IMG/VR virus record: IMGVR_UViG_3300048597_000140 | Location: 1-20,264 of that record | DNA: 20,264 nt | Reading direction: 5' to 3' (one strand) | DNA from: a virus | Shown here: positions 1,221 through 19,207 of the stretch, one piece after another | How positions within the stretch are numbered: the first letter of the stretch is position 1 | How the letters are laid out: each line of letters starts with the position of its first letter | Notes under the pieces: generated by a model | The model's input: only the letters and a program-made list of their open reading frames with translations | Told to the model about the DNA's origin: nothing | Database searches by the model: none | Program-made: the position numbers and the translations under genes

Positions 1221-1708
1221 CAGCTCCACACCCCCTCAAGGCACTTTCTGCTCCGACCCGGCCTGACCTTCGGCTTCTCCTGCACCTGGTCCAGCAGTGG
1301 GAACACCGTGCCGCTCACCGCGATCGGCTCCTCCACATCGGCCGCGGCGATCGTCTCAAGCAGCTGCTGGCGCTCCTCGCTGGTGAGCATCGCCACCGGC
1401 TCAACGATCTGCGCCGCCGGGCCCTTACCCCAGTCGTCTCGCTCGCACCCGCGCCACCAGCTGCAGGGCTTCAACGCCTCCGGGCAGCAGGCCTCCTGCA
1501 CGGTGAGCTCGCCATCCACCCACGACAGCAGCAGCCGCCACACGCCGAAGCTGGCCCACACGCTGCCGGTGCGCAGCTGGGGCGGGTCGGTGTCCAGCAC
1601 CAGGCGGTGGGGGCGGCTGATCACGTCCCGCAGGATTCGCGCCAGCGTCTCGGCGGTGCACCGCACCGGCAGGTCGTCCGTCTCGGCAGAGGGATGGGTG
1701 GTGGTCAT
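1220..1708 (-). CDS. Hypothetical protein, unrecognised
   Basis: The 162-residue protein is soluble, with mixed strand and helix. The central part (residues 30-85) looks like a compact beta-rich domain (RLVLDTDPPQL, VWASFGVWRLLLSWVDGEL) with two adjacent cysteines and a further cysteine in WWRGCERDDWG. A helical segment (LTSEERQQLLETIAAADV) and a basic tail follow. I do not recognise a family. The ATG at 1708 overlaps the upstream stop (ATGA) and its own stop overlaps the next start (TGATG), placing it firmly in the leftward operon. A large plus-strand frame lies opposite but has no protein-like composition. Confidence 0.6.
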   Translation of the reverse strand: MTTTHPSAETDDLPVRCTAETLARILRDVISRPHRLVLDTDPPQLRTGSVWASFGVWRLLLSWVDGELTVQEACCPEALKPCSWWRGCERDDWGKGPAAQIVEPVAMLTSEERQQLLETIAAADVEEPIAVSGTVFPLLDQVQEKPKVRPGRSRKCLEGVWS

Positions 1709-1968
1709 GGTTGCGGATCTTCGTCGTTAAGCGCACGCCGGATTTGTTCGTCACGCCATCTGCAGTAGCGAATGAAATCAGCCGTCAGCGGTTGAGTCCG
1801 CGGCGGGGCTGGCGGCGCTGTCGCCTTGCTACCGGGCGGAGGTGGGTTGCTCCCTCGACGGATTGTCCGGGAAGGCCGCCAGAAGGGAGGCCCATAAAGA
1901 CCGATGCAGTAGCTGATCAGCATGCCGACACAGCCGCCGACCAAAGAGGCAAACACTGGGTTGTCCAT
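1705..1968 (-). CDS. Small membrane-anchored protein with proline linker
   Basis: The 87-residue product has an N-terminal hydrophobic segment (residues 4-25, around FASLVGGCVGMLISYCIGLY), a basic and proline-rich linker (about 30-60) and a helical charged tail (LTADFIRYCRWRDEQIRRAL). This predicts one membrane span with the charged tail on one side. The start at 1968 lies in a 34-bp sequence that is nearly identical to the one at the start of the gene at 2584. That shared initiation region is why I prefer it over the longer frame opening at 2121, whose N-terminus is low-complexity arginine and serine. Function is unknown. Confidence 0.55.
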   Translation of the reverse strand: MDNPVFASLVGGCVGMLISYCIGLYGPPFWRPSRTIRRGSNPPPPGSKATAPPAPPRTQPLTADFIRYCRWRDEQIRRALNDEDPQP

Positions 1969-1998
1969 CACCGGCAGAGAGCAGCGTGAACATCGGCC
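1965..1998 (-). repeat. 34-bp initiation-region duplication, copy A
   Basis: Identical to 2581-2614 at 33 of 34 positions (only 1980/2596 differ). On the minus strand both copies end with the ATGG of a gene start. In this copy the upstream part is intergenic. Confidence 0.85.
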
Positions 1999-2008
1999 AC
2001 TGTGGGGC

Positions 2009-2254
2009 TCAGAATCGCAGGCCGCAGCGCTTCGCGTACCGCTGCAGCTCCGCCCGCTGCTCCGCCGTCGCCGTCCCATAGATCGCCGGGTTGTTCGCCG
2101 CCACAATGGCGATCGACACATTCGAGCAGCCGTTCTGCCCCGTCCGGAAGAGCCCGTCCGCAGCGTTCAGGTTGTCGTTCACCGTCGTGTTCGGTCGCGC
2201 CTGGGCCACTCCGCTGGTCAGCACCAGCACCATGGCGGCAAGGGTTCGGAGCAT
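2009..2254 (-). CDS. Small exported protein
   Basis: The 81-residue product has a convincing signal peptide: MLRT, a hydrophobic core (LAAMVLVLTSGV), then AQA as a signal peptidase I site near residue 19. The mature part is about 62 residues with two cysteines (in NGCSNVSIA and KRCGLRF) that could form a disulfide, and a helical end (TAEQRAELQRYAKRCG). The mature protein would be periplasmic or secreted. No family is recognised. A phage-encoded periplasmic protein could serve superinfection exclusion or lysis control, but nothing in the sequence shows that. It is the only clearly Sec-exported protein of the leftward operon. Confidence 0.6.
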   Translation of the reverse strand: MLRTLAAMVLVLTSGVAQARPNTTVNDNLNAADGLFRTGQNGCSNVSIAIVAANNPAIYGTATAEQRAELQRYAKRCGLRF

Positions 2255-2278
2255 CGGGCGCAGGGGTCGCTGGAGCGC

Positions 2279-2584
2279 TCATTGTCTCTTCTGCCCACGA
2301 CGGATGGCGTTCAGCAGTCCAGATCGTTCGTCAGCCGAACACTCGAAAGGAGCCCTCAGAAGGTCTCCCCTTCGAAATGCTGCCACCCGCTGCTTCCAGG
2401 CCAGCCGTTGCAGGTCGTCGTTGCTGATGCCTAATGCGTAGGCCAACGCCGCCACCCCTTGGTCGAATCCCCTTCGGTAGCCGATCTCCTCGTCATGGGT
2501 TCGCGCCAGGCCTTGAGGCTCAAACGCCAATCGCTCTGCAGTGGTAAGGCGGCGTCCGCCTGGCGTAACAAAGAGTTCGCCCAT
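2279..2584 (-). CDS. Small soluble protein, unknown function
   Basis: The 101-residue product has a helical core with a YRRGFDQGVAALAYALG segment, then DDLQRLAWKQRVAAFRRGD and a C-terminal SADERSGLLNAIRRG. It is mixed charged and has no membrane segment. I recall 'YRRGYDQG' style helices in small phage and cyanobacterial proteins but cannot name a family. The ATG at 2584 is preferred: it overlaps the stop of the 51-residue gene upstream as TGATG and lies at the end of the 34-bp duplicated sequence. A GTG immediately before it (2587) is also in frame. The next gene starts after a 24-base gap. Confidence 0.6.
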   Translation of the reverse strand: MGELFVTPGGRRLTTAERLAFEPQGLARTHDEEIGYRRGFDQGVAALAYALGISNDDLQRLAWKQRVAAFRRGDLLRAPFECSADERSGLLNAIRRGQKRQ

Positions 2585-2614
2585 CACCGGCAGAGGGCAG
2601 CGTGAACATCGGCC
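2581..2614 (-). repeat. 34-bp initiation-region duplication, copy B
   Basis: Partner of 1965-1998, one mismatch. Here the same bases also encode the last residues (ADVHAALCR) of the 51-residue gene, whereas in copy A they do not encode a plausible protein end. Confidence 0.85.
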
Positions 2615-2739
2615 GCGGCCTGCGTCACGATCGGCGCCGGCCGCAACGCATCCAGACCCTCCACACGCAGCTGGTGGCCAAGGTGCACACCAGCCGCCAA
2701 CACAGCCGGCGGCAGCAGGAACAACAACAGGCGTTTCAC
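2584..2739 (-). CDS. 51-residue single-span or exported peptide
   Basis: The frame begins with GTG at 2739 and encodes a basic N-terminus (VKR), a strong hydrophobic stretch (LLLFLLPPAVLAAGV) and a polar tail with a final cysteine. This is a signal anchor or uncleaved membrane segment. No ATG exists in this frame nearby, so GTG is the probable start. The stop overlaps the next ATG (TGATG), which supports translation through this frame. It would be the first gene of the leftward operon, immediately beside the divergent control region. A larger antisense frame spanning 2584-3351 contains it but the rest of that frame is a shadow of plus-strand genes. Confidence 0.45.
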   Translation of the reverse strand: MKRLLLFLLPPAVLAAGVHLGHQLRVEGLDALRPAPIVTQAAADVHAALCR

Positions 2740-2821
2740 AGTGGAGACAGATCGGGGACGCCTATGACCATACCACTCCGTAGAGGGATGGTCTACTTTG
2801 TGTTGGCCCATCCGACACCAC
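2740..2821. promoter_or_regulatory. Divergent control region with imperfect dyad
   Basis: This short gap separates the leftward operon from the rightward replication operon, so it should hold both promoters. ACCATACC (2767-2774) and GGGATGGT (2785-2792) form an imperfect inverted repeat with seven of eight positions complementary, a possible operator. Inside it lies CACTCCGTAGA (2774-2784), found again before the connector-portal genes at 14174-14184. No consensus -35/-10 pair is convincing. Both operons begin near small RHH- or HTH-like genes, which could be the regulators. Confidence 0.45.
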
Positions 2822-3016
2822 ATGCTCCACCGCAACCCCATCCCCTGCCGCCTCACCGAGCAGCAGATCGCCTGGCTGGACGCCCAGCGCGTCGGCGCCG
2901 TCTGCTCACGCTCTGAGGCCATCCGCCACGCCGTCCAGTACGCCATGGAGCACCAGCACCGCATCAACCAGCGCGCCATCCGCCGCGCGCAGCGCAACGA
3001 CGCCACGGCCCAGTGA
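2822..3016 (+). CDS. Small ribbon-helix-helix-like DNA-binding protein
   Basis: The 64-residue product has a strand-like start (NPIPCRLTEQQ), helix one (QIAWLDAQRVG) and helix two (SRSEAIRHAVQYAMEH), then a basic tail (RINQRAIRRAQRND). This is the ribbon-helix-helix arrangement, where SRSEAIR marks the N-cap of the second helix. It is well placed to autoregulate the rightward operon from the divergent region upstream. Start 2822 gives the compact fold; 2798 is an alternative adding eight unstructured residues. Its stop overlaps the next GTG start by GTGA. Fold assignment rests on pattern recognition. Confidence 0.65.
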   Translation: MLHRNPIPCRLTEQQIAWLDAQRVGAVCSRSEAIRHAVQYAMEHQHRINQRAIRRAQRNDATAQ

Positions 3017-3339
3017 GCACCTTCCTCACCCGCTGGGGCCGCCTCACCGGGCCCGAGTGGATCCGCCGCCGCTTCGATGAGGCCTCCCGCGAATGGCTCA
3101 CCCCCGAGGTGCTCCATCACGCCTTCCTTCGCCTGCCCTACCACGACAGCAACGGCCAGGAGATCGTCGACCTCGACTTCATCCGTCTGCTCAGCGACGA
3201 CCCCGCCGCCGCCCGCCAGCAGCTGGAGCACGAGTGCACCGCCTACCTGAACCACCTCGCCATCTGTGATCGCCGCCGCGCTGAACAGCAGGCACGCCAG
3301 CACCAGCAGACCACCGCCACGCAGCACTCCCCCCTCTGA
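3013..3339 (+). CDS. Helical protein preceding primase, unknown
   Basis: The 108-residue protein is mostly helical: PEWIRRRFDEASREWLTPEVLHHAF in its first third, and a C-terminal charged helix (AAARQQLEHECTAYLNHL to about residue 93), ending in a Gln/Thr-rich tail. No family is recognised. The GTG start overlaps the preceding stop, and its stop overlaps the primase ATG (TGATG at 3337-3341). It is therefore translated in register with the primase-helicase, and a replication accessory role such as a loader or origin-binding partner is possible, though only context suggests it. Confidence 0.6.
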   Translation: MSTFLTRWGRLTGPEWIRRRFDEASREWLTPEVLHHAFLRLPYHDSNGQEIVDLDFIRLLSDDPAAARQQLEHECTAYLNHLAICDRRRAEQQARQHQQTTATQHSPL

Positions 3340-5921
3340 TGCCTGCACCATCCCTGCCCCTCGACGAGGCGCAGGTCACACGCTTCATGGCGATGCTCGG
3401 CAAAACCCCGGACACCGCCCGCTTCCGTGCCTTCCCGCACGCCGAAAACCCCCGCCGGGTCACCATCGGCCCGCGCAAAGGGCCCTACGACCTCAAGGCC
3501 TTCGGCTTCTGGCAGGCCCAGGGCCGCGGCGTCTACATGGTCATCAACGACGGCGGCGACACCAAGGCCTCGATCACCGCCTGCCGGGCCTTCTTCTGCG
3601 AATGGGACGATCGGCCCATCACCGACCAGCTCACCGCCTGGAAGGCCCTCGGCTACGGCGAACCGACCTTCATCGTCCTCACCGGCGGCAAGTCCGCTCA
3701 CCTCTACTGGGTGCTCGCCGATCCCATCGCTCCAGACCAGTGGGAGCCGGTGCAGTCGGCACTGGTTGATCACGCCGGCGCCGACCCGAAGTGCAAAGAC
3801 CTCCCCCGCGTCATGCGCCTCCCCGGCGGCCGCTACATCGGCCCCGATTGCACACCACAGGGCGAGACTGTCATCACCGCGGCAGCCGGCCGCCGCTACA
3901 CCCTCGAGGAGGTGCTCAGCTGGCTGCCCTCCACCCAGAGCCCACCACCGCAGCGCCAGGGGATCGACATCAGCGACCCCCGGCCGCCGCTGGTGGATCG
4001 CCCTCGTCCTCTCGATCAGGTGCGCGAGGCGCTCGCCGCCATCCCCCCCATCCTGCCGAAGACCGGACAGCGCGAGACCTTTCGCGCCATCGCATGGGGG
4101 CTCCTCGGCGCCGTGCGTGAAGCCGGTGGATCCGATGCCCTCGCCCTCCAGCTGCTGCAGGCCCACAGCCCCGCGGTGACCGACGCCGCCGAGTACCTGC
4201 AGAGCGAACCCCACACCATCCGCCCCAGCACCCTCTGGTATCACGCCAGGCAGCACGGCTGGCGCCCTCAGGAGGAGCGCACCACCAGCGCCACACCGGT
4301 GCCATCCCGGGCCCACCCCGACGCAACTCCGGCCGAACAACCCGCCGCCCCGCCGCTGCTCACCATCCACCAGGTGCGCAGCCAGCTGGCCGCGGCCGTC
4401 GCCAGCGGTGCTTCCGAGACCGATCTGGAGGTCCTAAAGATCGAGCTGGCCATGGCCAGCGACATGAACCCCGCCGCCCTCGGTGGGCTCCTTCGCTCCA
4501 TCACCAAGGAACACGAGGCCGCCCAGTCGATCGCCGTCGAGACCCGTGGTCTCCGCGACGCTGCCGACTGGAAGGATGTCGGCGCCGCCATCACCCTCGA
4601 GGCCATCCTCCCGCCCTCCATCGCCGCTGCCCTTCGCTGCCGTTGCAAGGCCCTCCCCACCGACGATGTGTCGGCGCTCATGCCCTTCCTCGTCACCATC
4701 TCCAGCGCCCTGAAGCTCGGCAGCGAAGTCGTCGCCTCTGAAGCCGCCGACTACCGCGTACCACCCAATCTCTACGCCGCCCTCGTCGCCCGCTCCGGCG
4801 CCAAGAAGTCCCCCGTCTCCCGCCTCCTCGTCACCGCTCCCACCACCACCATCCGCCGCGAGCTCGCCAAGGCCCACACCCGCGCTCTTCAGGACTGGAC
4901 CGAGCAGAACCGCAACGTCAAACCATCCGAACGCCCCGACCCGCCCCAGGCGGTGTTCATGTCCATCAGCGACACCACCGCCGAGGCCCTCGCCTCACAG
5001 CTGCAGGCCCAAGAGGTGCGCGGCCTTTCACTCCTCCTCCACCGCGATGAGCTCGCCGGCATGTTCGGTTCCCTCAACGCCTACCGCTCCGGCCGCGGCG
5101 GTGATGAGGAGCAGCTGCTCGAGGCCTACGACGGCAGCGGCTTCCACTCCCTTCGCGTGGCGGCCACCGGCGGCGGACGCTTCTACGAACGTTGCCAGCT
5201 CTCGGTGTGGGGCACCATCCAGCCGGCCATCCTCGAGCGCCTGGTGGCCAACGGCGACGCCTCCGGCCTCTGGGCCCGCTTCATGTTCATCCCACTCCCG
5301 GAGAAGGTGGTGCCGATCGCGGCCACCGAATCCAGCAGCGAACGCGATGCCGCCGCCGATGCCGCCCTGCGCCTCACCAAGATCTGCCAGCTGATCTACA
5401 AGCTGCCCCGCTCCTCCCTCTTCCTCACCGACGACGCCCGGCGGGTGTTCTTCGACTACGAGGCCCGCTGCCAGGCCGACGCTCTCGCCGCTCTTATCCC
5501 CGCCCAGGGCGCGCTGTGGGGTAAGGCCCCGGGGAAGGCACTCCGCCTCGCCGGCCTCCTTCACACCATCCACCAGGTCGCTGGTGATGGTGATCACTCG
5601 CCGCTGATCGAGGAGCAGACCATCCGGAACGCGGCCACTCTCGTCGATCACGTCAACAGCTGGACGATGAGCCTCCACGCTTCCGTTGAGCAGGGCCCGG
5701 CCACTCAGCTGATGCGCACAGTCCATCGGATTGCGCAGTCGCATGGCGGCTTCGTCGGCTCGCGCGACATCTGGTCGGCCATGAGCCGTCAGCAGAGGAA
5801 GGAGATCGACTCGGCGGCCATCACTCAGGCGATGCAGGCCCTGCAGGAACTGGGTTCTGGTGAGATTGAGCAGAGCCGGCGCGGCTCCATCCGGTACCAG
5901 GCGAACGGCGTTCTCCCGTGA
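3339..5921 (+). CDS. Primase (RepB/AEP-like)-DUF3987 helicase-like protein
   Basis: The 860-residue protein is the probable replication initiator or primase-helicase. The N-terminal third resembles archaeo-eukaryotic-type RepB-like primases: an acidic motif E88-W-D-D91, T-G-G-K-S-A-H-L-Y-W at residues 115-124, and P-R-V-M-R-L-P-G at 156-163. A helical PriCT-like segment covers about 235-310, followed by an Ala/Pro linker. The centre matches the DUF3987 family: a P-loop-like S-G-A-K-K-S-P (486-492), an acidic Walker B-like L-L-L-H-R-D570-E571, the Y-R-S-G-R-G-G-D-E-E-Q-L-L-E-A-Y-D-G-S-G segment and L-S-V-W-G-T-I-Q-P. The C-terminus (about 795-860) looks like a winged helix. It is coupled to the upstream gene and followed by the iteron-like array. 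Domain calls are from motifs; primase activity is inferred. Confidence 0.85.
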   Translation: MPAPSLPLDEAQVTRFMAMLGKTPDTARFRAFPHAENPRRVTIGPRKGPYDLKAFGFWQAQGRGVYMVINDGGDTKASITACRAFFCEWDDRPITDQLTAWKALGYGEPTFIVLTGGKSAHLYWVLADPIAPDQWEPVQSALVDHAGADPKCKDLPRVMRLPGGRYIGPDCTPQGETVITAAAGRRYTLEEVLSWLPSTQSPPPQRQGIDISDPRPPLVDRPRPLDQVREALAAIPPILPKTGQRETFRAIAWGLLGAVREAGGSDALALQLLQAHSPAVTDAAEYLQSEPHTIRPSTLWYHARQHGWRPQEERTTSATPVPSRAHPDATPAEQPAAPPLLTIHQVRSQLAAAVASGASETDLEVLKIELAMASDMNPAALGGLLRSITKEHEAAQSIAVETRGLRDAADWKDVGAAITLEAILPPSIAAALRCRCKALPTDDVSALMPFLVTISSALKLGSEVVASEAADYRVPPNLYAALVARSGAKKSPVSRLLVTAPTTTIRRELAKAHTRALQDWTEQNRNVKPSERPDPPQAVFMSISDTTAEALASQLQAQEVRGLSLLLHRDELAGMFGSLNAYRSGRGGDEEQLLEAYDGSGFHSLRVAATGGGRFYERCQLSVWGTIQPAILERLVANGDASGLWARFMFIPLPEKVVPIAATESSSERDAAADAALRLTKICQLIYKLPRSSLFLTDDARRVFFDYEARCQADALAALIPAQGALWGKAPGKALRLAGLLHTIHQVAGDGDHSPLIEEQTIRNAATLVDHVNSWTMSLHASVEQGPATQLMRTVHRIAQSHGGFVGSRDIWSAMSRQQRKEIDSAAITQAMQALQELGSGEIEQSRRGSIRYQANGVLP

Positions 5922-6276
5922 CCTCGCGCGCGGTGTGCTGGGTGTTGCAAGCGGTTCTCAAGTGGCCCGCATACGTGGGCGAATGTGGGCTGTGTGGGCT
6001 TCTGTGGGCTGGCGAGCCTACATTCACTTCCCTTCCAGCGCAGCGGGTTTCGGCAAAAAACGGCCGTTTGTGGGTTTGTGGGCTGCTTCGAGCGTGGGCG
6101 CGTTCGCGTGGCCCCTGAAAAGGGGAAAAAGAGAGGGCGAAAAGGGAAGGGCAACCCACAAACCCACACATATATATATTTCTTTCTAATCCCTTCCAGG
6201 GCAGTGGATCTGACTGTGGGCTGCCCCAGCCCACAAACAGCCCACAAACCCACACTCACGAGCCAGTGCCACCGAC
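5922..6276. other. Candidate replication origin: TGTGGG(C/T)T iteron array
   Basis: This 355-base gap has no credible gene. It carries TGTGGGCT or TGTGGGTT at 5984, 5993, 6003, 6069, 6077 and 6215, and the reverse complement at 6153, 6161, 6228, 6239 and 6247. There are also CGTGGGC at 5974 and 6093 and a one-mismatch reverse copy at 6015. The 6215 and 6228 copies form a perfect eight-base-pair hairpin with a five-base loop. An AT-rich tract (ACACATATATATATTTC at 6167-6183) lies inside, and TCCCTTCCAG is repeated at 6029 and 6190. Iterons flanking an AT-rich tract beside a replication gene are the known layout of plasmid and phage origins; the assignment is inference. Confidence 0.6.
5938..5964. 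repeat. 27-bp dispersed repeat, copy 2
   Basis: Non-coding copy of 683-709 (23 of 27 identical), starting 16 bases after the primase stop. It contains TTGCAAGCGGTTCTCA, whose reverse strand has TGAGAACCGCTTGCAA. It directly precedes the iteron array. Confidence 0.45.
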
Positions 6277-6939
6277 ATGCTCCGCCGCCACCCCACCGAC
6301 TGGCTCCCGCGCCTTCCTGGCCTCTACCGAGACGCAGAGCACCGCTACCACCTGAACGGCCAGACCTTTCCGGTGTCGGTCACCGGCGTGCTCGCCGCCG
6401 GCAAATCCACCTACGCCATGAAGGCCATCGAGGCCACCCGTGAGCAGTGGGAGCCCCGCGGCAACACCGTGCACCGCGCCCTGGAGCTGGCCTGCACCGA
6501 CCCGGCCTTCCACCCCGACCACTGGGGCCCCTGCTGGCGATGGATCAACTGGGTGTGGCCGCTGCTCACCCACCCGCTGTGGGATGGCGTGGAGATCATC
6601 GCCAGCGAGATGGGGCTCTACGCCACCGACGGCAGCGTGGCGGGCACGTTCGACGGCGCCTACCAGCTGCCGGGCGGCGAGCGGATCCTGTTCGACCTGA
6701 AGACCCAGGCGCGCGCGGATGACGGCGCCTACGACACCAGAGCGCAGCTCGGCGGGTACCTGTGGATGGCGGCGCAGCACGGCATCACCTTCGACGGGGC
6801 CGCAACGCTCTGGGCGCGGCCCGGGAAGACCACTCCGCAGTGCTTTGGGGTTGATGAGTGCCTGGAGGCGTGGGCGGCTGCCTGGGAGGCGTACAGGGCC
6901 CTCTCGCGGGGTGGGCGCCGGCCCCTGCTCATTGGCTGA
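6277..6939 (+). CDS. RecB/Cas4-like PD-(D/E)XK exonuclease
   Basis: The 220-residue protein shows the ordered active-site residues of RecB-family nucleases: H66 in RGNTVHRALELA, E111 in ASEMGLY, D126 in AGTFDGAY, D140-L-K142 and Q157-L-G-G-Y161. All are intact, so it should be an active metal-dependent DNA nuclease, probably the phage 5'-3' exonuclease for recombination. The N-terminal SVTGVL segment is also typical of the family. There is no cysteine tetrad for an iron-sulfur cluster as in canonical Cas4. No single-strand annealing protein is recognisable beside it. No Shine-Dalgarno is visible; the ATG follows the iteron array by about 20 bases. Confidence 0.85.
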   Translation: MLRRHPTDWLPRLPGLYRDAEHRYHLNGQTFPVSVTGVLAAGKSTYAMKAIEATREQWEPRGNTVHRALELACTDPAFHPDHWGPCWRWINWVWPLLTHPLWDGVEIIASEMGLYATDGSVAGTFDGAYQLPGGERILFDLKTQARADDGAYDTRAQLGGYLWMAAQHGITFDGAATLWARPGKTTPQCFGVDECLEAWAAAWEAYRALSRGGRRPLLIG

Positions 6940-7630: not shown

Positions 7631-8067
7631 GCTCGCAAGATTTCAGCGATCTCACTCCGCCACGCAATCTGGTGGAGGAATGGCTTGAGCAAAGCAGATC
7701 CGACGATTGCGTTGGCGCCTATGACGACGTGAGGTTCGCCACCATCGCCTATCGAGCTGGCGCAGAGCAGGCCGCCAAACAACTGGAGGATCAGTGGCCT
7801 AAGCCCATCACCGACAGAGTGCCCACCAAGGAAGACGCAGACGAAGCGGGGTACGTGCAGTTCCACACTCCAAACGGCAGATGGGATTATGGCAACTGGG
7901 AAAGTGCCGCACGAGGTGGCTATCCCTGGCGCCACACACCCCTGTGGCGGCCGCCCGCTCCGCCGACGTTGAAGGAGCAGGCCATTGCCGCACTGGACAT
8001 TCACGTGATCACGGGCAAGCCGCTAGACACGCATCTGATCCGCCGCGCCCTGGAGGCCGACTCGTGA
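7627..8067 (+). CDS. 'PIT.R.PT..DAD' family protein (DUF551-like), copy 1
   Basis: The 146-residue protein has an acidic N-terminal region (PRNLVEEWLEQSRSDD), an AYRAGAEQAAKQLED helix and a core motif W-P-K-P-I-T-D-R-V-P-T-K-E-D-A-D-E-A-G-Y-V-Q at about residues 57-78. A Trp-rich segment ends G-Y-P-W-R-H-T-P-L-W. The core is shared with the gene at 10132 (W-P-x-P-I-T-x-R-x-P-T, D-A-D, G-Y-V-Q, P-W-x-H-T), so the two are paralogues. The fold resembles DUF551-type small phage domains; no biochemical role is known to me. A helical C-terminus (LKEQAIAALDIHV...) is absent from the second copy. Coupled to the next gene by GTGA. Confidence 0.65.
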   Translation: MSSQDFSDLTPPRNLVEEWLEQSRSDDCVGAYDDVRFATIAYRAGAEQAAKQLEDQWPKPITDRVPTKEDADEAGYVQFHTPNGRWDYGNWESAARGGYPWRHTPLWRPPAPPTLKEQAIAALDIHVITGKPLDTHLIRRALEADS

Positions 8068-8279
8068 AGCCCTCCATCCATCGCGCGCAGGCTGAACTCC
8101 TCCGTCGCTACGAACACCAGCCCGCCGCCGAATCAGCCCCCGTCTCTGCCGCCCAAGCCGAACGCGATCGGATCCTCTCCCTCCTCCACATCCGTCGCAC
8201 CACCCTTCAATCCCTCGGCCAAGGCTGGACCGCTCGCCTTCGTGAGGTGCAGACCATCATCGACATCATCCAGCCATGA
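8064..8279 (+). CDS. Small helical protein, unknown function
   Basis: The 71-residue product starts with GTG overlapping the upstream stop (GTGA). It is helical and basic: HRAQAELLRRYEHQP, then AAQAERDRILSLLHIRR and WTARLREVQTIIDII. No cysteine or membrane segment is present and no family is recognised. The heptad-like leucines in the second half could support a short coiled coil. Its end overlaps the next start by ATGA. A longer frame from 7881 exists but overlaps the preceding gene almost wholly, so I use 8064. Confidence 0.55.
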   Translation: MKPSIHRAQAELLRRYEHQPAAESAPVSAAQAERDRILSLLHIRRTTLQSLGQGWTARLREVQTIIDIIQP

Positions 8280-8512
8280 CGAAGTTCGTACCCAACTACA
8301 ACTTCGCTCCCACCGACTTCGACCGGCCCCTTGAATCAGGCGAGGGCATCACCCGCACCAGCGCACCACACGCCCGCCACTTCCGCTTCATCATCACCTT
8401 CACCCACGCGCGCCCCATGCGCACCACCATCCTGTCCACCTCACGATCGGAAGCCGAGAAGTTCGCCCGGGCCCGCCACCCAACCCTCATCAGCCTGCAC
8501 CCCGCCGACTGA
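8276..8512 (+). CDS. Small basic beta-rich protein, unknown
   Basis: The 78-residue product has a polar N-terminus, then HFRFIITFTHARPMRTTILS, which reads as two strands, and a helix (SEAEKFARARHP). Such strand-strand-helix miniproteins with Arg/His on the strands often bind nucleic acid, but no family is recognised. Both its start (ATGA) and stop (TGATG) overlap neighbours, which supports it being translated. It immediately precedes the nuclease-fold gene. Confidence 0.55.
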   Translation: MTKFVPNYNFAPTDFDRPLESGEGITRTSAPHARHFRFIITFTHARPMRTTILSTSRSEAEKFARARHPTLISLHPAD

Positions 8513-8847
8513 TGAGCAACCCGCAAAAGCGCAAGGGTGACGCCGCCGAGCTTGAGGCCGCCCGCCTCATTCACGATCTCACCGGCTTCCCGGCACGTCG
8601 CAAGCTCGGCGCCGGTCGCACCGATGACACCGGCGACATCGACGGCATCCCCTCCACCGTCATTCAGGTTGCCAACTGGCGGGACGTGACCGCCGCTCTG
8701 CGGGCTAAACCCCTCGGTGCTGAGGCCCAGCGACTCAACGACCAGGCCACCTTCGCCGCCACCTTCCTCCGCCTCCGCGGCGGCCTCTGGCGCGTCGCCC
8801 TCACCCCCGAGCAATGGGCCGTTTACGCCCGCGAATCCCTTCCATGA
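8512..8847 (+). CDS. PD-(D/E)XK resolvase-like protein, active site altered
   Basis: The 111-residue protein looks like a small Holliday-junction-resolvase/endonuclease fold: KRKGDAAELEAARLI (E13 or E15 on the first helix), RRKLGAGRTDDTGDIDGIP (D42) and a strand V-I-Q52-V-A54-N-W-R-D. In active relatives the strand normally reads V-(E/D)-x-K. Here Gln and Ala occupy the acidic and lysine positions, so catalysis by the standard mechanism is doubtful. The rest, including Q68-type helix LGAEAQRLNDQATFAATF and the final strand-helix, fits the family. It may be a DNA-binding relic, use moved residues, or be misassigned. Coupled by ATGA to the lipoprotein-like gene. Confidence 0.6.
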   Translation: MSNPQKRKGDAAELEAARLIHDLTGFPARRKLGAGRTDDTGDIDGIPSTVIQVANWRDVTAALRAKPLGAEAQRLNDQATFAATFLRLRGGLWRVALTPEQWAVYARESLP

Positions 8848-9335
8848 AACGCTGCCTCGTCCTTCTCAGTCTCAGCAGCCTGATGGCCTGCCAGACGCTC
8901 CCCGCCCACGCCGACGCGCCACCCCCAGGCGCACAGCCCGGCCGAGTCTTCCCCGGTGAGCAGTACTCCCCCCCAGCCAGCATCACCCGCACCGATCCCC
9001 TGGGCTACCTCCCGGCGCCCGTCCGGCGCATCCCCGGGGGAGTCTCGGCGAGCCGCATCTTCGACGCCCCCATCACCGGCGGCGGCCGCTTCAGCTCACC
9101 GCCCTGGGCCCCGGGCCGCGGCGCGCTGGTGAGCTTCGTGGTGCCTGGCCTCGATCTGCCGCCCGGTGACGGCGGCGACGGCGGCGACGGTGAGCCGCCC
9201 TACATCCCTCCGCCCCACCCCGAGCCACCCTCGCCTCACGATCACCAGCCCGCCGTCCCTGGGCCGCTGCCTCTGGCCGGCGTGGCTGCGGCATGGGGGT
9301 GGGCAAGACGGCTGCGGAGGAGGGTTCAGCGATGA
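8844..9335 (+). CDS. Pro-rich envelope protein: lipobox-like start, VPGPLPL tail
   Basis: The 163-residue protein begins with a signal peptide (MKRCLVLLSLSSLMAC); L-M-A-C16 is a near-lipobox and AHADA offers an alternative signal peptidase I site. The mature part is Pro/Gly-rich with a GDGGDGGDGEPP stretch near residues 109-119. It ends with VPGPLPL (138-144), a short hydrophobic segment and RRLRRRVQR. That ending resembles PEP-CTERM-type sorting tails, in the VPGPLP form I know from cyanobacteria. The same architecture (N-terminal lipid anchor, Pro-rich middle, C-terminal membrane span) also describes phage unimolecular spanins such as T1 gp11. The start at 8844 is fixed by the ATGA overlap. 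No holin or endolysin is seen nearby. Confidence 0.6.
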   Translation: MKRCLVLLSLSSLMACQTLPAHADAPPPGAQPGRVFPGEQYSPPASITRTDPLGYLPAPVRRIPGGVSASRIFDAPITGGGRFSSPPWAPGRGALVSFVVPGLDLPPGDGGDGGDGEPPYIPPPHPEPPSPHDHQPAVPGPLPLAGVAAAWGWARRLRRRVQR

Positions 9336-9556
9336 ACGTGCGGATCAACTTTGGAGCGCTCAGCCCGCCGATCGGTGAGCAGCTTCAGGATCAGGGCCTA
9401 AAGCTCGACATGGACACTCTCCAGCGGCAGTACCTGCAGCGTGATGCGGATGAAGTGTCACGGCTCCGGGTTCGCGGGGTGCTCACAGAATCCGAATCCG
9501 ATAAAGCTCGGAAACGCATCATGCAAGTCATCAAGAAACAAGCGAGGCCGTTATGA
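9332..9556 (+). CDS. Small helical protein, unknown function
   Basis: The 74-residue product has an N-terminal strand-like piece (NVRINFGALSPP) and then long charged helices (IGEQLQDQGLKLDMDTLQRQ and ADEVSRLRVRGVLTESESDKARKRI) with a basic end. It could be an assembly or DNA-binding protein; no family is recognised. The ATG at 9332 overlaps the preceding stop (ATGA); the upstream in-frame ATG at 9293 is rejected because it would run through the sorting-tail coding region. Its stop is coupled to the next start by ATGA. Base composition is less GC-rich than the gene before it. Confidence 0.55.
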   Translation: MNVRINFGALSPPIGEQLQDQGLKLDMDTLQRQYLQRDADEVSRLRVRGVLTESESDKARKRIMQVIKKQARPL

Positions 9557-10032
9557 CCCACCACCCCGACTTCCGCGCCGAACTTCAGGCGCTCCTTAAT
9601 GCCGTCCACGATCTACGGATTGAGAGTGGCGAGCCGAAACACGGTGCATTCAGAGCAGCGCTCGACCGCGCCCGCACCGCGCTGGCCGCGCCGCAGCAGG
9701 GGGCGCCCACCGAAGAACAGATCCTCGCCTGTCGTTCGTGGAGTTCACACGGCCCGGCCCTTGATTCCGACCTTGTGGACTTCGGGCGCCAGCTCCTCAC
9801 CCGCTACGGCGCCCAGGCCGTGCCGGTGGCGGTGGCGAAGAGGTTGCCGGGGGAGGGGGATTGCATGGCCAACCCACGCAACGGCGAGGGGCTGTGGTGC
9901 TGGGCTTGGATTCAGCACGATCCGAGCCTGTTCACCGGCCGCTGGCGCATGGTGCGCCGCGAATGGTTGGCCGAAGAGGCCACCCACTGGCTTCCCCACT
10001 GGGCGCTGCCGCTGCCGGAGGCCCAGCCATGA
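9553..10032 (+). CDS. DUF551-like C-terminal domain protein
   Basis: The 159-residue protein has a helical N-terminal half (FRAELQALLNAVHDLRIE, FRAALDRARTALAAP). Its C-terminal domain starts V-A-V-A-K-R-L-P-G-E-G-D-C, continues with G-L-W-C-W-A-W and ends T-H-W-L-P-H-W-A-L-P-L-P. That Trp/Pro ending is typical of DUF551-like domains. It is a more distant relative of the two PIT.R.PT proteins in the same operon (x-R-x-P, acidic, Trp motif in the same order). Function of such proteins is not established. Coupled at both ends by ATGA. Confidence 0.65.
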   Translation: MTHHPDFRAELQALLNAVHDLRIESGEPKHGAFRAALDRARTALAAPQQGAPTEEQILACRSWSSHGPALDSDLVDFGRQLLTRYGAQAVPVAVAKRLPGEGDCMANPRNGEGLWCWAWIQHDPSLFTGRWRMVRREWLAEEATHWLPHWALPLPEAQP

Positions 10033-10142
10033 CCGGCCTCGCATCCGTCGCCGTTGCCGTGCTGATCGCTTTCAGCAGCGGCACTGGCGGCATCGTCATC
10101 GCCTCCGCATACACCCAACTGGTAACAACTCATGACCGCTGA
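10029..10142 (+). CDS. 37-residue single-span membrane peptide
   Basis: The frame encodes MTGLASVAVAVLIAFSSGTG followed by GIVIASAYTQLVTTHDR. Residues 4-26 form a small-residue-rich hydrophobic helix. It starts with an ATGA overlap and runs 11 bases into the next gene. Its length and position are compatible with a small membrane regulator, for example holin- or antiholin-like, but there is no motif to support that. The longer frame from 9861 is a shadow of the preceding gene. Confidence 0.45.
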   Translation: MTGLASVAVAVLIAFSSGTGGIVIASAYTQLVTTHDR

Positions 10143-10449
10143 TCTTTACCCACCTCGGGAGCTGCAGCGACTGTGGGGCTACGAGTCTCACCAGCACCCC
10201 AACCCAGAGCTTTACATGCGCAAGCGGATCGCCGCATGGTGCGCTGAGCAGGCAGGAAAATCGGCTGCTACTGCATGGCCCGAGCCAATCACCCATCGGC
10301 CGCCGACAGAAATGGATGCCGATCGCCTTGGTTACGTTCAATATCTTGACGAAAGAGGATTCTGGTCCATTCGCTATTGGTACAACGTGGCTCTGCATGG
10401 CCAGCCTTGGCTTCACACGCTGAGCTTCACCATGGACGGCAACGCGTGA
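10132..10449 (+). CDS. 'PIT.R.PT..DAD' family protein (DUF551-like), copy 2
   Basis: The 105-residue protein carries W-P-E-P-I-T-H-R-P-P-T-E-M-D-A-D-R-L-G-Y-V-Q around residues 46-67, then a Trp/Tyr-rich region and P-W-L-H-T. This matches the same blocks of the gene at 7627 in order and spacing, so they are diverged paralogues within one operon. It lacks the C-terminal helical extension of copy 1. Its third codon positions are markedly more AT-rich than in copy 1, suggesting separate histories rather than a recent tandem duplication. Role unknown. Coupled by GTGA to a 19-residue micro-ORF. Confidence 0.65.
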   Translation: MTADLYPPRELQRLWGYESHQHPNPELYMRKRIAAWCAEQAGKSAATAWPEPITHRPPTEMDADRLGYVQYLDERGFWSIRYWYNVALHGQPWLHTLSFTMDGNA

Positions 10450-10505
10450 GGCTTCCCGTATACTGGCTCGCCATCGCCGCTGCCATCCTCATGGTCTGCA
10501 TCTGA
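10446..10505 (+). CDS. 19-residue hydrophobic micro-ORF
   Basis: A GTG-started frame fills the gap between two genes exactly: GTGA overlap at its start and TGATG at its end. It encodes VRLPVYWLAIAAAILMVCI, a single hydrophobic helix after one arginine. Because both junctions follow the coupling pattern of the operon, it could be a real membrane micropeptide, or a translated leader that carries ribosomes between the flanking genes. No family can be assigned at this length. Confidence 0.45.
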   Translation: MRLPVYWLAIAAAILMVCI

Positions 10506-10693
10506 TGGACGCCGAATATCGGGAGTACCTCGTCACTGTTCGGCACGATGAACACCGAACCCAGGACTTCCCGATCATCTCCCATTGCGCTTGGGCCGCT
10601 GGTGCTCAACTCCTGCAGAAACGCCCCGGCTCGCGCATCGTCGCCATCCGCCGCCGCTACCGTGACATCAGCACACCTCAGGATCAGGGCTGA
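10505..10693 (+). CDS. Small protein, unknown function
   Basis: The 62-residue product looks like a compact strand-helix-strand protein: EYREYLVTVRHDEH, then HCAWAAGAQLLQKRPGSRI and VAIRRRYRDIS. It is basic and soluble, and the spacing recalls small DUF-type phage proteins with an Arg-rich final strand. No family is recognised. It starts in TGATG with the 19-residue frame and ends in TGATG with the virion protein. Confidence 0.55.
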   Translation: MDAEYREYLVTVRHDEHRTQDFPIISHCAWAAGAQLLQKRPGSRIVAIRRRYRDISTPQDQG

Positions 10694-11454
10694 TGGCTGA
10701 CATCACCTTCGAGGCCGACACCAGCCAGCTCACTGCCCTCCAAGGTGCCTTGCTGACCCTCAGCGGCAAGATGAACCGCGTCACGGCCGTCGCCATGACG
10801 CGATCCGCCAAGGCGGCCCAGGCCGAGCTTCGCCGGCGCACTCCCGACTACATCGATAGGCCCACACCCTGGACCCTCAACGGCACATTCGTCAGGCCAG
10901 CCACTGAGGCCAAGCTGGTAACCACCGTGGGTTTTAAGGACGACACCATTGGGATTAGCACACCAGCGGCCAAGTATCTCCAGTTACAGGTATCCGGGGG
11001 CAGGGCGAAGCACAAGCCTTTCGAGAAGCTTCTCCAGAGACGTGGCATCCTTCGGTCGGGGGAGTTCGCCATACCGTCGGGTGCTGCTCCATTCACTTTC
11101 AACAGCTACGGGAACATCCCCTCCAGCAAGTACGTTCAGATGCTCTCTCGGCTCAACGCGCTGCGTGAGGCGGGTTCAACAAGCAACCGCACCGGCTCGC
11201 CTCGATCCCGGGCTGCCAGGCGCAAGGAGGACTTCTTCGTGGCAGAGATCAACGGGCACCGCGCCATATGGGCCAGGGTGGGGCAAGACAAGCGGGACAT
11301 CCGCCCAGTGTTCCACTTCGTGAACGCCCCCCCGAAGTTCAGCTCGCGCTTCCCTGTGCCCAGCATTGTCACCAAGGCATTCCATAAAGCATTCCCTGGA
11401 GAGCTAATAAGAGCTGTTGATGAGCAGATCAGATATAATCGTAGACTCAGATAG
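10693..11454 (+). CDS. Putative virion protein (neck/minor tail, GpZ-like)
   Basis: The 253-residue protein starts with a helical Ala-rich part typical of minor tail Z/neck proteins (SGKMNRVTAVAMTRSAKAAQ). Then comes a conserved-looking block I know from phage structural genes beside terminase loci: D55-R-P-T-P-W, F-V-R-P-A-T, a strand with T-V-G-F-K-D-D, Y-L-x-L-x-V-S-G-G, and later F-F-V-A-E-I and F-H-F-V. I read it as a neck or minor tail component; no experiment-based assignment is implied. It closes the coupled operon. Codon use is more AT-rich than upstream, especially the last 60 bases with rare ATA and AGA codons, suggesting different ancestry. Confidence 0.5.
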   Translation: MADITFEADTSQLTALQGALLTLSGKMNRVTAVAMTRSAKAAQAELRRRTPDYIDRPTPWTLNGTFVRPATEAKLVTTVGFKDDTIGISTPAAKYLQLQVSGGRAKHKPFEKLLQRRGILRSGEFAIPSGAAPFTFNSYGNIPSSKYVQMLSRLNALREAGSTSNRTGSPRSRAARRKEDFFVAEINGHRAIWARVGQDKRDIRPVFHFVNAPPKFSSRFPVPSIVTKAFHKAFPGELIRAVDEQIRYNRRLR

Positions 11455-11690
11455 TATAAGAAACTTAAGCTAACCCTTGGCCATCGCGCAACATTTATGA
11501 CTAGCAATCTTTGGCCTTCAATTACACCTTTGGGTCCTCCCCTGTTATATTTAGTGGGGTTAATTCGACCCTCGCTTTTCCGCTAGCGCCAGAGTCGCAA
11601 CTTAGTTACCGCAATCGATTTCAGCCGCACCGTCCCCGCTCCCATGCCTCTCGGTAACCGGATGCTGCCATCTTCGGTAACCTAGACGCA
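11455..11690. other. Lower-GC intergenic region before terminase
   Basis: This gap is among the least GC-rich DNA in the window. It has a nested fold-back: GGGTC (11532-11536) with GACCC (11567-11571), and CCCC (11539-11542) with GGGG (11556-11559), around a TTATATTT tract. A CGCTAGCG palindrome lies at 11581-11588. A 29-codon frame (11497-11586) encodes a partly hydrophobic peptide with no other support. GGTAACC sites begin at 11604. Position and structure fit a packaging (cos or pac) region or a late promoter. Confidence 0.5.
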
Positions 11691-11720
11691 TTGGTTACCG
11701 CCCGGGTGCAGCTGGTTACC
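11604..11720. promoter_or_regulatory. Cluster of GGTAACC sites beside small terminase
   Basis: GGTAACC occurs at 11653-11659 and 11676-11682, and its complement GGTTACC at 11693-11699 and 11714-11720. A one-mismatch copy (AGTTACC) lies at 11604-11610. Four perfect sites fall within 68 bases; the only other GGT(A/T)ACC I found is at 10917. Four of five are preceded by C on the GGTAAC(C/T) strand. The last two sites are inside or at the start of the terminase gene. Candidate small-terminase binding (cosB/pac) sites or an operator. Confidence 0.5.
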
Positions 11721-12248
11721 TTCACGGAGTTCGCGCAGCGCGTCGGGGTGAGCCGGCCGGCGATCAGCAAGGCGGTGAAGACCCGCCTGATGGATGCCGT
11801 GAAGGAGCGCCGCGGGAAGCCGATGCTGGATCTCGATCGGGCCCTGCAGCTCTGGAACGCCGGCAACCAGCGCCAGGCCCGGGGCCGTGCTGCCGTCGCC
11901 ACGACACCAGCCGAAGGTCAGCCGCTGAGCACGCGGAAGGCGCTGGCCGAAACGGTGCTCGACCTGCCTGACGACGCCATCCCGAAGCTGGGGGAGTCGT
12001 TGGAGCGGAAGGAGTTCTACCTGGCCGAGCTGGCGAAGATCAAGGCGAAGCAGCAGTCGGGAGAGCTGGGCAGCGTCGCCGAGATGAAGCGGGAGGCCTT
12101 CGGCCTGGCGAAGTCGGTGCGGGAGGCGGTGCTTGGCATCGTGCCCAGGGTGAGCGCAGACCTGGCCGCGGCCGGCGATCGCTTCGAGGTGGAGCGGCTC
12201 CTCGAGGCCGAGCTGGTGGCGGCGCTGCGGGTGCTGGCGGATGGCTGA
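11691..12248 (+). CDS. Terminase small subunit (DNA recognition)
   Basis: The 185-residue protein has an N-terminal helix-turn-helix (F-T-E-F-A-Q-R-V-G-V-S-R-P-A-I-S-K-A-V, about residues 11-29). A linker, a helical oligomerisation region (KEFYLAELAKIKAKQQSGEL) and a C-terminal helical part ending FEVERLLEAELVAALRVL follow. This is the Nu1-like architecture of small terminases, which bind the packaging site and recruit the ATPase. It overlaps the large terminase start by eight bases. The start is uncertain: TTG at 11691 or GTG at 11706, neither with a Shine-Dalgarno. The GGTAACC cluster overlaps its 5' end. The KRE-rich helix resembles phage DNA-packaging Nu1 homologues by pattern. Confidence 0.75.
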   Translation: MVTARVQLVTFTEFAQRVGVSRPAISKAVKTRLMDAVKERRGKPMLDLDRALQLWNAGNQRQARGRAAVATTPAEGQPLSTRKALAETVLDLPDDAIPKLGESLERKEFYLAELAKIKAKQQSGELGSVAEMKREAFGLAKSVREAVLGIVPRVSADLAAAGDRFEVERLLEAELVAALRVLADG

Positions 12249-14163
12249 CGCGGCCGCGGCCTACCGGGAGGCCTTCCTCGACGGCCTGCGGCCCGAGTCG
12301 CTGGGGACGGTGAGCGAGTGGGCGGACCAGCACCGGGTGCTGGGTGGGATCGGGTGCCCGGAGCCGGGCCCCTGGCGCACCAGCCGGACGCCGTACCTGC
12401 GCGAGCCGATGGACTGCCTGAGTGCCAGCAGCAGGGTGCGGCGGGTGGTGCTGGTGTTCGGCAGCCAGCTGGGCAAGACCGAGGCCGGGCTGAACTGGCT
12501 GGGCTACACCATCGATCAGCGGCCGGCGCCGACCCTTCTGGTGCAGCCGACGATCGAGATGGCGAAGCGGCTGAACCGGCAGCGGCTGGAGCCGTTCATC
12601 CGCGAGACGCCACGGATCGCCGAGAAGATCCCGCCGCCGCGGAGCCGGGACAGCGGGAACACCATGTTCATGAAGGTGTTCCCGGGCGGCCTGTTCGTCC
12701 TCACCGGCGCGAACAGCGGCAGCTCGGCGCAGTCGATGCCGGCGGCGAACCTCTTCGCCGACGAGGTGAGCAGCTATCCGCTGGATGTGGACGGCAAGGG
12801 CGACCCGCTGGAGAACTTCGAGGCCCGGACGGCCAACTTCCCCAGAGGGAAAATCCTGATCACCAGCACCCCGGGCGAGGTGGGGTCGTGCCGGGTGACG
12901 AAGGAGTACCGGACCCGCAGCGACCAGCGCCGGTACGAAGTGCCCTGCCTTGCGTGCGGGGCCCGGCAGGCGCTGCTGTGGCCCAACTTCAAGTGGGACC
13001 GGCCGGACGGGGAGGTGCGCTACGAATGCGCCCACTGCGGCGAGCGCTTCGAGGAGCGGCATAAGAGCCGGTTTCTGCCGGAGGGGCTGTGGGTGCCGCA
13101 GGCGGCGGGCGATGGGGTGACGGCTGGCTTCCACCTGCCAGCCTGGTACGCGCCGCTCGGGTGGCTGAGCTGGGGGGAGATCCGCGACCAGTTCCTGCGG
13201 GCAGGCCACGACCCCCAGCTGCTGATCGGGTGGGTGAACAAGCGGGCGGCGCAGGCGTGGGAGGACACCCTGGCGAACCAGTTCAGCGCGGAGGGCTTGG
13301 CGAAGCGGCGGCAGAACCTGGCGGCGGGCAACGGCTACGCCGAGGGTGTGGTGCCGGCCGGGGTGCTGACGCTCACCGCCGGCGTGGATGTGCAGGGCGG
13401 CGGCGGCTCGATCGGCGAGCGGCTGGTGGTGACGGTGTGGGGCTGGGGCCGCGGCGAGGAGGCGTGGCACCTGTTCCACGGCGAGATCCATGGCGACCCC
13501 CAGGCCGACGAGGTGTGGGAGCAGCTCGACACCGTGCGGCTGACGAAGTGGCGGCGCGAGGACGGCGCCGAGCTGATGATCGCCAAGGGCGGCATCGATG
13601 ACGGCGGGCACGCCACCCACCGGGTGCGGCGGTACTGCAAGGCGACGCCAGGGTGGGTGCCGGTGAAGGGCACCAGCACGCGCGGGAAGCCGATCATCGG
13701 CAAGGGTTCGGCGGTGGATGTGAACCACCGGAACCAGTCGGTGACGAAGCGGGGCGTGCTGCTGTACATGATGGGCACCGACACCTCCATCACCCACCTG
13801 CAGGGGCGGCTGCGGAACGATCAGCCGGGCCCGGGCTACATGCACCTGGGCCAAGCAGCGAGCGACCAGTTCCTACGGGAGCTGTTCCCGTGGAAGCGGC
13901 GGCCGCGGAGCGTGAAGGGCTTCACGGTCTACGACTGGGAGCTCCCCCAGGGCGAGCGTGACGAGGCGGGGGACTGCACGCGGATCGCGTACGCGGCGCT
14001 GCAGCTGCTGGCGCGGCAGTTCCCGAAGACGACGATGTGGAAGCAGCTCGAGGAGGCGGCGCTGGCCACGGTGAAGAAGCCCGAGGGTGGGGCGTTGGCG
14101 GCGCCGGAAGGCAAGCGCAAGGCGCGGCAAAGGCCAGCGATCAACCCCGTAACGACTTGGTGA
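12241..14163 (+). CDS. Terminase large subunit (GpA family)
   Basis: The 640-residue protein matches lambda gpA-type terminases in length and order. The ATPase has a P-loop G-S-Q-L-G-K-T at 74-80, a Walker B segment N-L-F-A-D174-E175 and a coupling motif S-T-P-G at 209-212. A zinc ribbon follows (C236-x2-C239 and C263-x2-C266), as is usual in GpA. The nuclease domain has D383 in T-A-G-V-D-V-Q and D453-D454 in G-G-I-D-D-G. It cuts concatemers and drives DNA into the head through the portal. All key residues appear intact. A basic, Ala-rich tail (residues about 610-635) could contact the portal. A 604-residue antisense frame is a composition artefact. Confidence 0.95.
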   Translation: MADAAAAYREAFLDGLRPESLGTVSEWADQHRVLGGIGCPEPGPWRTSRTPYLREPMDCLSASSRVRRVVLVFGSQLGKTEAGLNWLGYTIDQRPAPTLLVQPTIEMAKRLNRQRLEPFIRETPRIAEKIPPPRSRDSGNTMFMKVFPGGLFVLTGANSGSSAQSMPAANLFADEVSSYPLDVDGKGDPLENFEARTANFPRGKILITSTPGEVGSCRVTKEYRTRSDQRRYEVPCLACGARQALLWPNFKWDRPDGEVRYECAHCGERFEERHKSRFLPEGLWVPQAAGDGVTAGFHLPAWYAPLGWLSWGEIRDQFLRAGHDPQLLIGWVNKRAAQAWEDTLANQFSAEGLAKRRQNLAAGNGYAEGVVPAGVLTLTAGVDVQGGGGSIGERLVVTVWGWGRGEEAWHLFHGEIHGDPQADEVWEQLDTVRLTKWRREDGAELMIAKGGIDDGGHATHRVRRYCKATPGWVPVKGTSTRGKPIIGKGSAVDVNHRNQSVTKRGVLLYMMGTDTSITHLQGRLRNDQPGPGYMHLGQAASDQFLRELFPWKRRPRSVKGFTVYDWELPQGERDEAGDCTRIAYAALQLLARQFPKTTMWKQLEEAALATVKKPEGGALAAPEGKRKARQRPAINPVTTW

Positions 14164-18869: not shown

Positions 18870-19207
18870 TGATCACGGAAGATCTCGACATCTTCCTTTC
18901 CGACTTCGGCGTCAGCATAACTGCTGGCGCCGTTTCTGGTTTGGGTATTCTGGACATGCCGGGAGAGGTGGTGTTCGACGGCGTGCGCGAGTCGTATACG
19001 GGCGCCATCTCCAGCCAGTACATGCTGACGTGCCGCACGGATGAGTTCGGATGGCTGGGATATGGAGATCAAGTGAACGTTGATGACGTGGGTTATCGGG
19101 TGCAGGAGAAGTTAGACATCACGGATGGCCGCTTCTGCCGGCTGTTGATGGAGAAAGTGGCTGGCGATGATCCGGTCGAGTTCGTGTTTGACGGGGACTT
19201 TGAGTGA
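18869..19207 (+). CDS. Head-tail joining protein, lambda FII-like
   Basis: The 112-residue protein resembles the lambda gpFII/Phage_attach family. It has an N-terminal helix ([14 protein letters not shown]), a segment with [12 protein letters not shown], then [17 protein letters not shown] and [12 protein letters not shown], and a final strand CRLLMEKV. The 'RTDE...GD.v.v....Y.V' block is the family signature I rely on. It would complete the head before tail attachment. The ATG overlaps the previous stop as TGATG, and its own stop overlaps the tail-fibre ATG. Codon use is less GC-biased than in the capsid gene. Confidence 0.65.

Follow-up and report, generated by a model that had tools for sequence, protein, structure and literature searches.

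A putative iteron origin directly behind a PrimPol-DUF3987 helicase gene in a probable picocyanobacterial phage

The 355-bp gap at positions 5922 to 6276 of the virus contig IMGVR_UViG_3300048597_000140 is likely to be a phage replication origin, part of a rep-ori module read by the PrimPol-DUF3987 protein encoded immediately upstream. The window analyzed here, 20,264 bp long, comprises the entire IMG/VR record, which may be a fragment. Origin activity of the gap is inferred from its array of iteron-like repeats, the position of that array, the diversity of motifs found at the same place in related phages, and natural recombinants in which the winged helix and the array were replaced jointly. 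Related phages have an array of this kind in the same place with different words, and in two cases the word changed with the C-terminal tail of the protein, so it is very probably the site where this protein starts replication. In the proposed mechanism, the protein would bind the TGTGGGYT iterons behind its own gene via its C-terminal winged helix, the helicase domain would assemble on the two iteron blocks, which are roughly inverted, and then open the purine- and AT-rich center, and the AEP domain would begin DNA synthesis. On origins read by PrimPols, the open-access literature describes a stem-loop in pRN1 and a pair of 8-nt sites in NrS-1, and otherwise only suggests recognition by the C-terminal winged helix. 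An iteron origin directly 3' of the gene for a self-loading helicase is a known arrangement; what appears to be new here is its presence in PrimPol phages, with many specificities and with the reader and the array swapped jointly.

The original prediction, made from the sequence of this stretch, described eleven TGTGGG(C/T)T octamers in both orientations, plus variants, in a non-coding gap between genes for a primase/DUF3987 protein and a RecB-like nuclease, and all of this is borne out by counting and by the domain matches (Table 1). The gap is non-coding by position and its two flanking genes are on the same strand. Six exact octamers are on the plus strand (starting at 5984, 5993, 6003, 6069, 6077, and 6215) and five on the minus strand (6153, 6161, 6228, 6239, and 6247), all within positions 5984 to 6254 and arranged in mostly opposed blocks, the first of them 62 bp from the PrimPol stop codon; the variant CGTGGGCG is found at 5974 and 6093. 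The rest of the window contains no further exact copy. The chance expectation for the whole window is 1.37, none of 100 shuffles reached 11 copies, and dinucleotide shuffles of the gap gave a mean of 0.05 and a maximum of 2 in 2000.

One octamer pair forms the perfect hairpin that had been predicted. The gap folds as a single strand more stably than shuffled sequences (z of -2.6) because its iterons are inverted. An AT tract of about 17 bases had also been noted; the tract is real and its length needs correction, as the longest unbroken A/T run is 12 nt (6170 to 6181) within a 21-nt stretch that is short, lies inside the array, and is off-center. Purine-rich or TAGGGGGG tracts recur in the relatives. 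The predicted repeated sequence was recovered as TCCCTTCCAG at 6029 and 6190, inside a second element, an 18-nt repeat with copies that are 89% identical and located one on each side of the purine and A+T tracts; TCCCTTCCAG adjoins a word common to other arrays (CCAGCGCAG in copy 1). Elsewhere, this second element (also written TCCCTTCCAGCGCAGYGG) recurs next to different iteron words, with GGTATGACTGGG or ATAGGGGGG in place of the window form CCAGCGCAG. The gap has no Rfam match and no tRNA, and blastn against named phages returned no relevant match to it. A turning point of GC skew mapping elsewhere was named in advance as evidence against an origin, and neither the window nor its near-identical relative G001 shows a turn at the array; skew follows the gene blocks in both records and both are incomplete, so the missing turn counts only weakly against an origin.

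Table 1. Positions of the initiator gene, the candidate origin, and the downstream gene in the window
Feature	Coordinates	Strand	Evidence
Initiator gene, 860 residues: PrimPol (AEP), middle domain, DUF3987 helicase, C-terminal winged helix	3339..5921	+	Domain matches
AEP primase-polymerase domain, residues 1-200	3339..3938	+	phmmer to 6zp9 (S-2L PrimPol), E 3e-26
DUF3987 helicase domain, residues 446-770	4674..5648	+	PF13148, E 2e-38; helicase-like ATPase
C-terminal winged helix, residues 786-860, proposed iteron reader	5694..5918	+	Predicted fold; covaries with motif in swaps
Iteron-like array, proposed origin core	5974..6254	.	Counts and shuffles; conserved in G001 and L122
Left block, TGTGGGCT x3 at 5984, 5993, 6003; spacing 9-10 bp	5984..6010	+	
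Second element, copy 1, TCCCTTCCAGCGCAGCGG	6029..6046	.	
Tandem TGTGGGTT TGTGGGCT	6069..6084	+	
Purine tract (one C) between both iteron blocks	6117..6151	.	Sequence
Tandem TGTGGGTT TGTGGGTT, reverse orientation	6153..6168	-	
A+T-rich tract, candidate unwinding element	6170..6190	.	19 of 21 A/T
Second element, copy 2, TCCCTTCCAGGGCAGTGG	6190..6207	.	
Inverted pair TGTGGGCTG-CCC-CAGCCCACA	6215..6235	.	Perfect hairpin, 9 bp: 6215-6223/6227-6235, 3-nt loop
Tandem TGTGGGTT TGTGGGCT, reverse orientation	6239..6254	-	
Downstream exonuclease gene (RecB-like)	6277..6939	+	PHROG 298, E 1e-14

Relatives were collected via the AEP domain; those from IMG/VR were the best 80 of 212, and 45 PrimPol relatives from this source entered the first comparison. 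In these 45, the densest 6-mer cluster was mostly found directly behind the PrimPol stop codon and consisted of lineage-specific words. The position was tested on 72 dereplicated loci (66 to 72 usable per offset), using 350-bp windows that contain one 7-mer at least 5 times: the fraction of array-bearing windows was 0.35 to 0.39 at offsets between -100 and 0 bp relative to the stop codon, with 0.39 directly behind it, and 0.00 at +400 to +1000, with a background of 0.022. About 40% of the dereplicated PrimPol loci have no array of at least 4 copies behind the gene; in several of them the reading frame is short or broken, or it contains the array itself. The different motifs that occupy this place number more than a dozen, including TTGCGTCCG, TTGCCTTCG, TTGCCTCCG, TTGGACAC, AATTCCCGC, TGTTCCCAC, TGTAACGG, AAGTTTCC, ATTCTTTGG, TGTTGGYC, TTGCCGAT, AGGTAGGT, GTAGGGCT, TGTCCCCC, TGTCCTAC, and TGTGGGYT. 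Besides DUF3987, the helicases of array-bearing PrimPols belong to the D5/DUF5906 (relatives L005 and L037), VapE-like, and AAA_25 types. Outside cyanobacteria, an inverted TTATTGACA array was identified directly behind the PrimPol-VapE gene of Moraxella phage Mcat17 (L251:6455-6670), and the PrimPol phages Enterobacter Mulvp2, Aeromonas KLEA5, and Vibrio 1.194.O have no array directly behind the gene. In one relative, the PrimPol gene is followed by a AATTCCCGC array and, next to it, by a second array, of AGTGCTACC (L171:4634-4900).

The TGTGGG word itself was found, among the loci examined, only with a helicase and tail homologous to those of the window, that is, in G001, a 35.6-kb near-identical phage contig (97% identical), and in the Synechococcus Baikal-G1 MAG (L122), where the PrimPol is 55% identical over the whole protein. 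The expectation that TGTGGGYT would be dense beside DUF3987 homologues thus holds for these two, and the other relatives carry other motifs in the same place; equal density elsewhere, which would have spoken against an origin, was seen nowhere in the window, and the array is the sole TGTGGGY cluster in G001. The G001 array is kept with one octamer (AGAACCCACA) changed by an inserted base and with the hairpin stem intact and its loop 1 base shorter. At its left end, G001 has TGTGGGT twice more (126 and 138), in sequence that looks coding, and both copies were taken as chance occurrences. A search of IMG/VR with the pattern TGTGGGYTTGTGGGYT returned 67 stretches, nearly all of them single chance matches without an array, and was set aside.

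These comparisons bear on the possibility that the iterons are an operator or autoregulatory site devoid of origin function, through which either the PrimPol itself or a different regulator of the phage would control transcription of the downstream exonuclease or of the replication operon. The longest downstream reading frame has the same direction in 26 of the 27 loci tested, so a promoter could lie in the gap, and winged helices, such as the one predicted for the tail with Zur/Fur as its closest folds (see below), are common in regulators. Against this, the gap has no terminator-like site, and no promoter-like site was detected in it in a search limited to the sigma-70 consensus, which cyanophage promoters need not match. 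A homologous-looking exonuclease gene is located 3' of the array in L122, L124, L184, L224, L220, and L169 to L171, but among the loci as a whole the downstream genes vary, whereas the array remains with the PrimPol. In the filamentous cyanobacteria L131, L135, L136, and L161, the array lies inside the PrimPol reading frame (7923-11312, 1352-4885, 7977-11393, and 7911-11912, respectively), toward its C-terminal end, where its words (TTAGACA, GCCGACA, GATCAACA, and GGTTACC, in both orientations) also encode a low-complexity linker. Finally, at least 11 copies, in two opposed blocks that together span 280 bp, are more than a usual operator contains. An operator without origin function is considered unlikely.

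If the gap is an origin, the domain that reads it is probably the C-terminal winged helix, as suggested by two recombinants, the predicted fold, and precedent. The window protein combines an AEP primase, a DUF3987 ATPase, and a C-terminal winged helix, matching the PrimQH/all3500-like architecture; the paper that describes PrimPol proteins with DUF3987 only suggests that their C-terminal winged helix recognizes the origin (PMC5862659). The full-length AlphaFold2 model, built with seven sequences, was poor (pLDDT of 48) and unreliable, so the model of the tail alone (the last 75 residues) was used; it has a pLDDT of 84.5 and the order H-H-H-H-E-E, and its best Foldseek matches in the PDB are the winged helices of Zur/Fur (probability of 1.00, TM of 0.6 to 0.7, E of about 3e-3). 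As a single-sequence query, the C-terminal part matched solely the near-identical contig, and an alignment was required to find more.

The first recombinant pair consists of L122, with TGTGGG, and L124 from Cyanobium Cruz-8D1, with TTGCCGAT. Their proteins are 93% identical in the AEP domain, 88% in the middle domain, and 97% in the helicase, as opposed to 62% in the tail; their DNA is 82 to 100% identical up to about -200, 48 to 76% over the end encoding the winged helix, about 45% over the array, and again 86 to 94% from +300 to +500. In an independent case, L169/L173 and L170/L172 differ in their iterons (GGAAACTT vs GGATTCTT), with DNA identities of 91 to 94% in the helicase, 75 to 80% in the tail, 61 to 67% in the array, and 84 to 90% downstream. 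In both swaps, the motif and the C-terminal winged helix changed while the helicase and the downstream gene remained about 90% identical. Conversely, the middle helical domain was exchanged with the word unchanged in L007/L037 (TTGCCTTCG) and L171/L220 (AATTCCCGC), which argues that it is not the reader. Among 29 arrays, the motif (labeled by eye) correlates with the AEP domain, the helicase, and the tail alike, and in 24 relatives of the helicase family the tail predicts the motif no better than the helicase does (partial rho of 0.09, p of 0.15); such a correlation cannot separate the two domains, and the case for the tail rests on the two swaps, the fold, and precedent. By tying the motif to the winged helix, the swaps lend support to the initial guess that this primase-helicase recognizes TGTGGG.

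The same data can be set against a different assignment, in which the array would mark an origin or a zone of priming, and it would be mainly the AEP and helical domains that read it, as single-stranded starts. Phage NrS-1, which also has a PrimPol-helicase with a sequence-specific start, uses two TTTGGTTA sites, one per strand (PMC7102993), and GTGG is an efficient start word for its PrimPol (PMC8718748). GTGG is present in every iteron of the window, and the S-2L and TGTTCCCAC arrays have GTG on one strand. Unlike NrS-1, the window has an array instead of two sites, and TTTGGTTA has no match in it; many arrays, such as those of TTGCGTCC, TTGCCTTCG, TGTTGGCT, and AATTCCCG, lack GTG; the exchange of the middle helical domain leaves the motif as it was; and the motif changes where the AEP domain and the helicase hardly do. 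Reading by the PrimPol part is accordingly judged improbable, and the winged helix remains the preferred reader. Repeated terminase sites occur in phage genomes, and a packaging element had been named from the start as an alternative to an origin, but a packaging (pac/cos) or recombination element appears most improbable, given that the terminase genes lie about 5.5 to 6 kb from the gap (11691 to 14163), that the array in relatives follows the PrimPol stop codon whatever the neighbors, and that cyanobacterial genome contigs also carry arrays behind the same helicase family.

The chances are about even that the winged helix and the array beside it make up an exchangeable cassette of specificity, in which reader and iterons are swapped or diversified jointly while the primase, helicase, and flanks are left intact. 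If they do, the cassette would give each lineage, mostly cyanobacterial phages and mobile elements, a private origin and would avoid cross-initiation in coinfected cells. In the genome of Cyanobium Cruz-8D1 (G002), the AEP part and the DUF3987-tail part are found separate or joined and with other partners (loci C18, C23, and C51), which is domain shuffling of PrimPol replicons. For dozens of phages and mobile elements, the comparison points to a candidate origin with its specific motif and to a domain that may read it, and the natural swaps provide ready-made controls, making origin recognition by PrimPol-helicases directly testable. For metagenomes, it suggests a simple rule for finding such origins, namely, to inspect the sequence directly behind the PrimPol stop codon.

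Among the known systems, the closest in layout are the staphylococcal ones. The C-terminal domain of SaPI Rep recognizes iterons directly downstream of its gene, and SCCmec Cch2 likewise uses its C-terminal domain to bind, in vitro, repeats that lie downstream of its gene (PMC7581432). The window shares with both a self-loading-type helicase initiator and a set of short repeats placed immediately 3' of the helicase gene, and SaPI5 Rep also has a primase domain; the window differs in its S-2L-like AEP PrimPol joined to a DUF3987 helicase, in its iterons, and in being a tailed phage. SaPI origins have an AT-rich region between the repeat sets; in the window, the A+T tract is off-center within the array, and the purine tract lies between the blocks. 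With a different initiator, this layout fits the SaPI plan, so the gap may work like a SaPI-type rep-ori module, with iteron binding predicted; it is not classed as a SaPI replicon, since the SaPI helicases belong to other families (DUF927 or Primase_Cterm/D5) and the iteron binding is a prediction.

The archaeal plasmid pRN1 encodes ORF904 (PrimPol-SF3-winged helix) and has its origin directly 3' of that gene, as in the window, in the form of a 100-nt stem-loop without iterons (PMC4234260). A stem-loop origin of this type was considered for the gap and rejected, as iterons are present and the folding follows from their inversion. Stem-loops have also been proposed for phage PrimPols, e.g., that of BPP-1, called BIP-1 there (PMC4234260). 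In this Bordetella phage, inverted TTTGCCTCG pairs around a short spacer lie on the 3' side of the PrimPol gene bbp29, at a distance of about 470 bp (L254:2605-2713); short, inverted pairs that resemble iterons thus occur near this gene as well, not far from the proposed stem-loop. The alpha protein of phage P4 is a multifunctional primase-helicase with a winged helix that binds origin repeats (as described in PMC4234260); its primase is of the Toprim type, in contrast to the AEP of the window protein. The closest characterized AEP domain is that of the S-2L PrimPol. The gap behind the S-2L PrimPol gene likewise carries a repeated word, TGTGCC, in both orientations, but in a weaker array and with a VapE-like helicase; the paper on this PrimPol (PMC8065100) contains neither "iteron" nor "repeat" and mentions no array.

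The arrays also share features of geometry. In 44 arrays with at least 6 copies, neighbors are mostly spaced by 8 to 11 bp, and lesser peaks lie at 21 and 30 bp; these distances would match one, two, and three turns of the helix. An arrangement in opposed halves accounts for 0.87 of the copies vs 0.77 in permutations, and nine arrays fit it perfectly. The words ATAGGGGG, GGTATGAC, CAGCGCAG, and ACCCCTTG are common to arrays with different iterons, each occurring in 9 to 14 of 50 dereplicated arrays vs 0.2 to 1.4 expected.

The window probably belongs to a phage of picocyanobacteria: most of the PrimPol relatives identified in the collection of bacterial genomes are cyanobacterial, and those sharing the helicase and tail of the window come from Cyanobium and Synechococcus records. 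Elsewhere in the window, the densest 6-mer cluster is formed by the DNA repeats of a gene for a tail-fiber protein with a collagen-like repeat (19204 to 20262), and a single reading frame (16403 to 18256) fuses a prohead protease (S78) to an HK97-type capsid protein.
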